Shown here: positions 43,622 through 45,788 of the stretch, one piece after another
Numbering within the stretch: position 1 is the first letter of the stretch
Layout: every line of letters starts with the position of its first letter
NCBI GenBank assembly: GCA_019359695.1
Contig: JAHHGV010000058.1
Span: 1 to 45,788 of the forward strand
DNA: 45,788 nt
Origin: Brasilonema angustatum HA4187-MV1
GTDB lineage: Bacteria > Cyanobacteriota > Cyanobacteriia > Cyanobacteriales > Nostocaceae
Reading direction: 5' to 3'
Notes under the pieces: model-generated
Told to the model about the DNA's origin: nothing
What the model saw: only the letters and a program-made list of their open reading frames with translations
Database searches by the model: none
Position numbers and translations under genes: made by a program

Positions 43622-44614
43622 ATGGGAGAACCTTTATTAGAGCGGCGCGATGCCAGCAAAGCTGGCTTGCCCCTTAGAGATCGCAAATTAGATCTAGCTG
43701 CTCACGCTGGCTAGCTCTATTACATTGCCGAAAATACACAGGAAGAGATTGCAACAAAGCTCAATGTGTCCCGGCAGGCTGCACAACGCCTGGTTGCACT
43801 CGCGGTTAGTGAAAAATTGATCAAATTTCGGCTCGATCATCCCCTGAGTGAATGCATTGCTTTGGCTGAGTCGTTACGCGATAAGTTTGGTCTGTCACTT
43901 TGTGAAGTTGTACCAACTGACGCAGGCAGCGGTGATACCTTCAATGGAATTGGCGTTTGTGCTGCCACCCACCTTGAAGCTTACCTGATCGCAAGAACCC
44001 CGACCATACTGGCGTTCTCCTCAGGACGCACATTGCGAGGAATGGTGGAGCAAATCCCCTCAATGAACCAACCCCAGCATAAGATTGTTTAAATTATTGG
44101 GAATATGTCCCATTATGGGCGTGCAGATCGCCACGAAGTGGTTATGCATTTGTCCGATCAGGTAGGTTCCCAAGCTTACCCAGTGCCGACTCCGGTTGTA
44201 GCGACTAGCATTGAAGAACGAGAACTCTTGCAGACTCAGCGATCGTTTATCACCGTCAAAACTCTTGCAGAGCAAGCCAAAGCAACGTTTGTCGGAATTA
44301 GCCACATTGCTTGGAATGCCCCCTTACATCAAGACGGCTTTATCAATGACGATGAAGTGGCTGAATTAATTGAACTAAGAGCAGTAGGAGAAATTGTGGG
44401 TTGGGCTTACGACCATTACGGAGTGTTGCTTCAACAGGGAACGAACAGCCGGGTTGCCAGTGTACCTCTCGAACAACCGACTCATCGGCTGATCATTGGT
44501 GTGGCAGGTGGTGTGAAAAAGGCGGAGGCGATTCTGGCTGCTTTGCGTGGCAAGTTAATTACGGGGCTGATTACCGATGAAGCTGCTGCCCAAGCCATTC
44601 TTGCTAAAATTTAA
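43622..44614 (+). pseudogene. SorC/DeoR-type sugar-responsive regulator with two in-frame stops
   Basis: One frame runs from ATG 43622 to 44614, interrupted only by TAG at 43712-43714 and TAA at 44090-44092. The parts are in order: HTH (NTQEEIATKLNVSRQAAQRL) and sugar-binding domain (LAESLRDKF; GNMS; SHIAWNAP; VGWAYDHYG; GVAGGVKKAEAI). The TAG lies in HAG*LYYIAENT, where the family usually has Trp; TAA follows HKIV, where Ser is usual. Both fit single-base nonsense changes. It would have controlled the adjacent polyol genes. Confidence 0.85.
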
Positions 44615-44646
44615 TACTAGTTTGCCTTCAAAGCCTTAAGGATTTA

Positions 44647-44772
44647 TATAGGAATCCGGTTTGATTCCTGAACAACTCGTCAGGGCAGGGAACAGGGAAC
44701 AGGGAACAGGGAACAGGGAAAAGCAATAAAGGTATACTGAGTTTTTTTCAAAAATCAAATAGGAGTCCTATA
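44647..44772. mobile_element. MITE-like element with (GGGAACA)n core
   Basis: The ends TATAGGAATCC-GGTTTGATTCCTGAA and, inverted, TATAGGACTCCTATTTGATTTTTGAA are imperfect inverted repeats about 126 bases apart. The core holds about five GGGAACA units (44686-44720). Related end sequences occur at about 36345 and 40963. It has no coding capacity. Confidence 0.6.
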
Positions 44773-44844
44773 TTCAAAAGAAATAACAGCTATTCAATCC
44801 CGTTTATCTTCTCAATTGGCATTTGCATTTCTGCAATTTACAAC

Positions 44845-44949
44845 TATAGCGCTTCTCAGTTGCGTACAATACACAGCTGTAGAGACGTAGCATGCTACGT
44901 CTCTACATTATTCGTGGTGGTGTATGTGATTAAAATGAGAACCGCTATA
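44845..44949. mobile_element. MITE-like element with 30-base central palindrome
   Basis: TATAGCGCTTCTCA (44845-44858) and TGAGAACCGCTATA (44936-44949) are 14-base inverted ends with one mismatch. In the middle lies a perfect 30-base palindrome, TGTAGAGACGTAGCA and its complement (44878-44907), a known type of cyanobacterial dispersed repeat. The element ends 38 bases before the mCpol-like gene and may supply or disturb its promoter. Confidence 0.75.
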
Positions 44950-44987
44950 AAACATTAGGTGCTTTTTTAGACCACAACGGTCAACTT

Positions 44988-45437
44988 GTGAATATTAAAA
45001 TTCTTGAAACTCCCATTGAAGAAGATCAAACTGTGTTTTCTTTTGGGTTTGATGGTGATTCCACTGGTGACTATTTAGACAGAGTATTTGGAGAATCAAG
45101 TGAAGATGAAGTGAGGAAACGAAGCCAGACAGTAAATGGAGCAATTGAGGCTTTGAAGAAGCTGATTTGCAAAGAAACAAAGGATCACAATAGTGTACTT
45201 TTTGCTGAAGGTGATAATATCCTTTTCAAATCGTGCTATAGAGTCAGCTTACTCAATGATCTGCAAAGGATTTACAAAGATAAAACTGGCTTAACTGGAA
45301 GCATAGGATATGGCAAAACTTTGCCAGAGGTTACATTGGCAATGCGTTTATCTAAGGCGAAAGGTGGAGACAGCATTATGGGTGTAGGTTTACGAGATTC
45401 TGGAGAAACAAACAACACAGAGCTAACCGCAGGCTAA
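44988..45437 (+). CDS. mCpol-like (minimal CRISPR polymerase) palm-domain protein
   Basis: The 149-residue protein looks like a single Cas10/GGDEF-type palm domain. The first strand ends in FGFDGDSTG (Asp22 and Asp24 for metal), the hairpin is FAEGDNILFK (Asp76; GDN where Cas10 has GDD), and the later TGLTGSIGYGKTLPEVTLAMRLSKAKG matches the family's last strand and helix. Known mCpol proteins make cyclic dinucleotides in anti-phage systems with 2TM-beta or CARF effectors. No effector is visible here. Start GTG has no clear ribosome site. The exact subfamily is an inference. Confidence 0.65.
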   Translation: MNIKILETPIEEDQTVFSFGFDGDSTGDYLDRVFGESSEDEVRKRSQTVNGAIEALKKLICKETKDHNSVLFAEGDNILFKSCYRVSLLNDLQRIYKDKTGLTGSIGYGKTLPEVTLAMRLSKAKGGDSIMGVGLRDSGETNNTELTAG

Positions 45438-45505
45438 CACTGCGTTGGTGCAGACGGTACGCAGGTTGTCTGTAGGTATTCAAGGTTACTTGCCGCCGCA
45501 CAACT

Positions 45506-45628
45506 TCACCGTAGCTTTAAATGCATCACCGCCATATCCTCTACAGCAATGCGGGTACCGACAATGCGAGGCTTCCCACTCCTCACATCAGAAGCGATCT
45601 CGATATGCTCCCGACTGACTAACTGCAT
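45506..45628 (-). pseudogene. DUF433-type antitoxin fragment
   Basis: MQLVSREHIEIASDVRSGK and PRIVGTRIAVEDMAVMHLKL match the N-terminal half of DUF433 proteins, antitoxin-like partners of PIN-like toxins. After LKLR comes TGA, and the usual C-terminal half (QSLEEIA and following helices) is missing. The frame continues upstream to 45727 without similarity. It is a truncated remnant. The rest of the right edge shows no gene. Confidence 0.6.
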
Positions 45629-45788
45629 TGAGAAATCTTCCATCTCCGTTCCATTATTTAATACAATACCTTCGCCAAAAAAAGAGGATAAATATCTCAA
45701 TCCCAAAACCTCGACTACTCGTCCCAAGTGGCGAACCGGATGACGCTTCGCTCTAATGGGCGGTGTCAGGAACGGGCTAGAAAAATTT

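Follow-up and report, generated by a model that had tools for sequence, protein, structure and literature searches.

The open reading frame at 44988-45437 (+) of the window, the whole 45,788-nucleotide stretch of Brasilonema angustatum HA4187-MV1 DNA analysed here, is very probably the surviving C-terminal third of a one-gene CARF-HEPN-mCpol protein of ~505 aa, whose first ~322 codons are gone and whose remainder carries MITE-like insertions; what remains is most likely a relic of recent origin and without function. An earlier note had described the frame as an orphan synthase left behind by the loss of a separate effector, and as a plausible relic. The second description is most likely right; the first falls away, since sensor and effector would have made up the first two thirds of this one protein. 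Because the remnant is the C-terminal third of a single-chain CARF-HEPN-mCpol protein, sensor, RNase, and synthase would formerly have formed one polypeptide. This architecture is already known, as PADLOC-DB of 2023 contains a model under that name.

The remnant frame encodes 149 aa from a GTG start, lies in a frame that is open over 167 codons, and contains a nearly complete mCpol palm domain. The Pfam mCpol profile PF18182 matches residues 19-131 (profile positions 2-112 of 114) with an E value of 2.4e-28 and 99.2 bits against a cut-off of 26.4, and NCBIfam NF033576 reaches 51.5 bits against a cut-off of 40; both scores are far above chance. The earlier note had read an mCpol-like domain from DGD, EGDN, and TGLTGSIGYG...AKGG, and this observation is confirmed. 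The motifs read FGFDGD, AEGDN, TGLTGSIGYG, and SKAKGG, and the acidic residues of the two retained acidic motifs, D22/D24 and D76, are invariant across nine aligned rows. An AlphaFold2 model built from the nine-row alignment (mean pLDDT 86.4, pTM 0.80) displays a domain of five strands and four helices, plus a three-residue strand N-terminal to it. In PMC12657218, KpOptS is described as a five-stranded sheet with four helices around it, with Asp6 and Asp57 as catalytic acidic residues. A search of PDB sequences with the nine-row profile identified 9mnr (Panoptes OptS, E 2.4e-5) and 9nwn (an mCpol structure, E 1.5e-4); both acidic stretches align to 9mnr, the first acidic motif lying opposite its IDGD. 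The top match of that search, a tendon repeat protein, was rejected as an artefact in which no stretch passes on its own. The Pfam search for a Cas10 palm gave 15.6 bits for Cas10-Cmr2_palm2, under the cut-off of 27. The mCpol of the remnant could still fold, and perhaps catalyze, if translation starts at the GTG.

Descent from the fusion family is supported by the extent of homology, by a second collinear piece, and by a phylogenetic tree. The PADLOC profile PDLC01967 (CARF_HEPN_mCpol) matches the remnant with an E value of 2.8e-53 at positions 338-470 of 471; in a search of the contigs with the same profile, the window copy retains positions 324-470 only, the CARF part and the HEPN motif being gone. 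As PDLC01967 stands for CARF, HEPN, and mCpol in one chain, which the window copy does not have, this copy is a remnant of the family and no working member of it. When the 504-aa protein of Microcoleus vaginatus (L033) is compared with the Brasilonema genome, its residues 347-504 match 44946-45419 with 82% identity over 158 residues. A second, collinear match (44771-44875, residues 323-357, 69%) runs on into a MITE-like element, so that only the stretch up to 44845 is genuine. Apart from these two, the protein matches the 98-contig genome at one place, a separate mCpol on contig C89 with 33% identity. Homology to the fusion protein therefore extends 5' of the start codon, through codons of the HEPN-mCpol linker at 44946-44987 (+) to a dead leftover at 44771-44845 (+). 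This leftover consists of 25 codons from the C-terminal end of HEPN (YSKEITAIQSRLSSQLAFAFLQFTT), downstream of the lost RNxxxH motif. Residues 1-322 of the Microcoleus protein, in which both the CARF part and the RNxxxH motif of HEPN lie, have no match in the 8.5-Mb, 98-contig draft genome (completeness 99.73).

In a tree of 39 mCpol stretches, the window copy (row L002) groups with fusion mCpols of the L033 type in a fork of 12 rows (98/98). The standalone mCpol of C89 (L001) falls in a separate 13-row fork of short mCpols (98/97). The fusion type of G205, G481, G288, and G542 forms another fork (93/87). Fusion-type mCpols are thus not one clade in this tree, because these four fall apart from the L033 type, a point that counts against the preferred reading. 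The rows L040 and L006/L052 are badly cut, with 22-40% of columns filled, and their placement is meaningless. An alignment of seven intact relatives runs over their full length, with R311, N312, H316, D382-G-D384, and E434-G-D-N437 invariant. The CARF and HEPN labels of the fusion rest on PDLC01967 and on the RNDIAH motif, which we take to be the HEPN motif; Pfam scores for CARF and HEPN on four fusion proteins were all under cut-off, the best being Cas_APE2256 (E 0.0015), Csm6_CARF (0.08), and HEPN_Apea (0.14).

Two MITE-like elements from separate multi-copy families mark the broken gene. Element A (44845-44949) is ~105 bp long when the TA on either side is counted, carries a central 30-nt perfect palindrome at 44878-44907, and has seven near-full copies of at least 95% identity in the genome, the window copy counted. 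Element B (44646-44773) measures ~127 bp and is bounded by imperfect terminal inverted repeats of 30 nt (44646-44675 and 44744-44773); its family has 45 members among the matches listed in the genome, five of them, window copy counted, at 93% or more over nearly the full length. Along the contig, the HEPN scrap at 44771-44845 is followed by element A, and homology to the fusion resumes from 44946. Element B forms the left end of the remnant, with no part of the fusion gene found beyond it. We take both elements as probable MITEs. The earlier note had placed MITEs in the flanks; the elements are there, but both lie in or against the same gene rather than in mere flanking sequence. Recombination between element copies may have removed the N-terminal part.

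The surroundings of the remnant hold no partner in the genes scanned. Upstream, and outside the mCpol gene, lies a sugar-binding transcription-regulator gene (PF04198, 43622-44614, +) with stops inside; the same regulator is an open 330-aa frame in the sister genome G411. This sister genome matches the window at 97-98% up to 44633 and then carries other genes, with EAD1-VMAP-C and EAD1-CHAT genes (L147:5535-8046) in the place of the mCpol remnant, and because of these genes the site looks variable. The five upstream neighbor genes scanned, made up of the broken regulator, a short-chain dehydrogenase, and an ABC transporter of sugar type, gave no effector and no PADLOC match, and none of these scanned upstream neighbors is an S-2TM-beta effector gene, the mark of a Panoptes system. 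The absence of an adjacent effector claimed earlier thus stands for the upstream side that the scan covered; downstream, the end of the window is the end of contig C16. What had been called a dead antitoxin fragment reads as a DUF433 piece in an ORF at 45506-45727 (-), with 25.7 bits against a cut-off of 23.6. The last ~125 bases (45664-45788) are a multi-copy repeat found at 11 other places among the matches listed, with 98-100% identity. Since six copies of this repeat start on the first or second base of their contigs and another stops where contig C15 stops, the end of a mobile element probably broke the assembly at the right edge of the window.

The fusion family was surveyed with PDLC01967 in overlapping sets of genomes: 217 from the family of the window (match in 25), 388 from its class (15), 61 from the family that includes G123 (11), and 13 traced by way of loci (12). 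The tally that follows omits L045, which begins at its contig end, the weak G562, and rows with only positions ~330-466 or weaker mCpol-end parts, which were taken as other mCpols (including G534, G424, G459, G544, G426, G523, G578, G570, G566, G530, G449, G403, G547, G485, G533, G549, G082, G333, G006:C17, G206, G318, G011, G142, G060, G273, G278, G616, and G621). The whole profile, from position 1 or 2 to 470 or 471, is open in nine copies: L033, L034, L036, L037, L038 (a MAG of Eremiobacterota), L040 (a MAG of Nitrospirae), and L042, all single proteins of ~505 aa, together with G205 and G225. Three copies have an open mCpol with the HEPN motif gone or cut, namely the window copy, L035 of Coleofasciculus, which has lost residues ~183-313 including the RN part of the motif, and G288, whose contig ends 5 bases beyond the match. 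Two copies, L041 and L039, have an open CARF-HEPN part with RNDIAH and have lost the C-terminal part of the mCpol through a frameshift near residue 449 and an insertion near residue 468, respectively; both acidic motifs are retained in these damaged mCpols. In L043 and L044, CARF and mCpol are both damaged and the HEPN stretch is readable. The CARF part of G481 is split off by ~1.9 kb, G542 is in pieces on two contigs with a stop, and pieces with stops or scraps are found in G647, G413, G411 (122 bases from the contig end), G556, and G006:C23. L046 is a short tblastn scrap in a genome without a PDLC01967 match. The Okeania copies share insertions in the mCpol in an overlapping pattern, with L043 and L044 alike at about residue 446 and L039 and L043 at about residue 468.

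Beyond the fusions, PF18182 matches 54 of the 388 genomes of the class, above cut-off in 30; many of these matches are weak and lie in frames of ~485-1044 aa, which were not taken as mCpols. The Microcoleus protein found no match in a plasmid collection at E 1e-5, and one scan of viral contigs with this single protein, which can reach close relatives only, found none. A fixed genomic partner of the intact fusion was considered and rejected, as neighbors compared by eye differ between loci. Among nine neighbor proteins of six loci searched with PADLOC, four at L036 match models of the Dnd and Zorya type, one at L038 matches the candidate PDC-S45, one at L087 has a marginal peptidase match, and three at L034, L035, and L042 have no match. 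At L036:868-9231, the intact fusion lies between DndD/DndC and ZorA/ZorB-like genes, in what is likely a defence island.

As the domains suggest, the mCpol palm of an intact protein would most likely make a cyclic (di)adenylate, the CARF part would bind that nucleotide, and the HEPN part would be an RNase under its control; the remnant would be left without its own sensor or effector. Two modes of action are conceivable for the intact relatives, and constitutive synthesis that restrains the RNase, as in Panoptes, seems slightly likelier than activation of the RNase by the product. Activation, as with the Csm6-like RNases of type III CRISPR, is nevertheless a serious contender that falls somewhat short of an even chance. 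In its favor, the CARF-HEPN proteins Csm6 and Csx1 are described as activated by cyclic oligoadenylate. These RNases share the order of CARF then HEPN with the fusion, and L033 has a weak match to the Csx1/Csm6-type PADLOC profile PDLC01031 (E 4.4e-6). Unlike the fusion, the Csm6/Csx1 chain carries no synthase. Against activation, restraint is the mode of action of the mCpols for which the two Panoptes papers (PMC12657218, PMC12657230) give tests, and a synthase without a visible infection sensor would need some trigger. For mCpol-linked effectors at large, PMC12657218, which names all of CARF, HEPN, and mCpol, states that 40% of mCpol genes have CARF-2TM partners and that operons or fusions with HEPN RNases are less frequent, and leaves it to be seen whether the nucleotide regulates negatively or positively.

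The damaged copies bear on the same question. The earlier note had argued that effector loss is harmless and synthase loss is not. A strict poison-antidote rule of this kind predicts zero copies in which the synthase is broken while the RNase half is intact, and two are seen; L039 and L041 keep CARF-HEPN next to a damaged mCpol, and a PF18182 search of their draft genomes found no further full-length mCpol, its matches being the damaged copy and hits of 25-29 bits in frames of 743 aa and 578 aa. The rule that synthase loss is lethal is therefore not supported, which speaks for activation; with so few copies, two draft genomes, and acidic motifs that both damaged mCpols keep, this may be taken as a hint only.

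The Brasilonema genome (G000) has three PF18182 matches. Contig C89 carries an intact two-gene pair, an mCpol of 126 aa with a CARF_m9-TM protein of 262 aa (PDLC01992, E 1.5e-63); by eye, the pair lies between cobalamin genes and a sigma-factor gene (L001:1480-2651). Like the fusion, this pair joins an mCpol to a CARF sensor; it differs in having separate genes and a membrane effector rather than an RNase, and its mCpol is 33% identical to that of the fusion. The match on C61 was rejected as an mCpol and is a Cas10b (PADLOC E 3e-187). A search of the genome with PF18153 (Cap15/S-2TM-beta) found no match but also recovered 0 of 14 controls, so that it shows little. Elsewhere, single-chain mCpol-CARF-TM proteins of 444-489 aa occur at L016:490-1956 (-), L056:1417-2820 (+), L058:478-1878 (-), and L067:508-1839 (-), with the mCpol first and then a CARF_m9-TM match (E 3e-32 to 4e-48); these are a one-gene version of the two-gene pair on C89.

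The presence of this pair is one reason to ask whether the remnant is a working free mCpol whose nucleotide is still useful, for instance in helping to hold down the CARF-TM effector of C89. The nearly complete domain with both acidic motifs agrees with such a role, Coleofasciculus L035 likewise keeps its mCpol after losing the RN of its HEPN motif, and constraint looks normal. The remnant is changed at 2 of 50 columns that are invariant in the other eight rows (148 columns, nine rows), the same measure for the other rows ranging from 0 of 48 to 6 of 54, with L035, itself broken, among them; dN/dS is 0.17 between the remnant and L033 and 0.156 for the intact pair L033-L034. Relaxed constraint is thus not apparent in the mCpol part. 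However, the 25-codon HEPN scrap differs from L034 at 0 of 25 amino acids, from L041 at one, from L035, L036, and L037 at two each, from L033 at three, and from L039 at four. Because this dead scrap, unable to work, is equally unchanged, the breakage would be recent and sequence conservation no evidence of function; conservation was accordingly rejected as proof that the remnant works. The C89 effector also has its own synthase, and the region 44400-45600 contains two promoter-like sites (mean of shuffled sequences 2.2) and three terminator-like sites (mean 0.9), one of the latter being the palindrome of element A just 5' of the ORF. A working free mCpol is accordingly improbable. A more specific proposal, that the gene has shed its sensor and toxin and was kept as a free mCpol whose nucleotide serves as a decoy for, or a restraint on, other CARF effectors of the cell, is a little less probable still; if true, truncation would turn a one-gene defence into a shared antidote, with Coleofasciculus L035 and G288 as parallel cases.

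An assembly misjoin, in which the cell holds an intact fusion gene and a false join at a MITE closed the contig, is very improbable. The genome is a 98-contig draft and the left junction sits at an element with many copies, but the N-terminal part is on no contig despite the completeness of the assembly, and element A splits two collinear pieces on one contig whatever the left junction is. Least credible is a naturally standalone mCpol of the OptS type whose separate effector gene was lost, since, although standalone mCpols exist and one is present in this genome (L001), the Microcoleus-protein matches carry homology 5' of the ORF into the fusion linker and HEPN leftover, PADLOC ranks the fusion model first, and the tree places the remnant among fusions.

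The preferred reading thus remains a recent relic of a CARF-HEPN-mCpol gene. It shares its palm domain with the OptS/mCpol proteins of Panoptes (9mnr and 9nwn; PMC12657218 and PMC12657230); in contrast with OptS, which stands alone beside an S-2TM-beta effector, it was formerly fused to CARF-HEPN, and no effector adjoins it within the contig sequence. With sensor, RNase, and synthase in one chain, the family would be a compact system for testing, with one gene, whether mCpol signaling restrains or activates. The natural breakages at both ends of this gene in cyanobacteria provide a first, weak hint that damage at the synthase end may be survivable.
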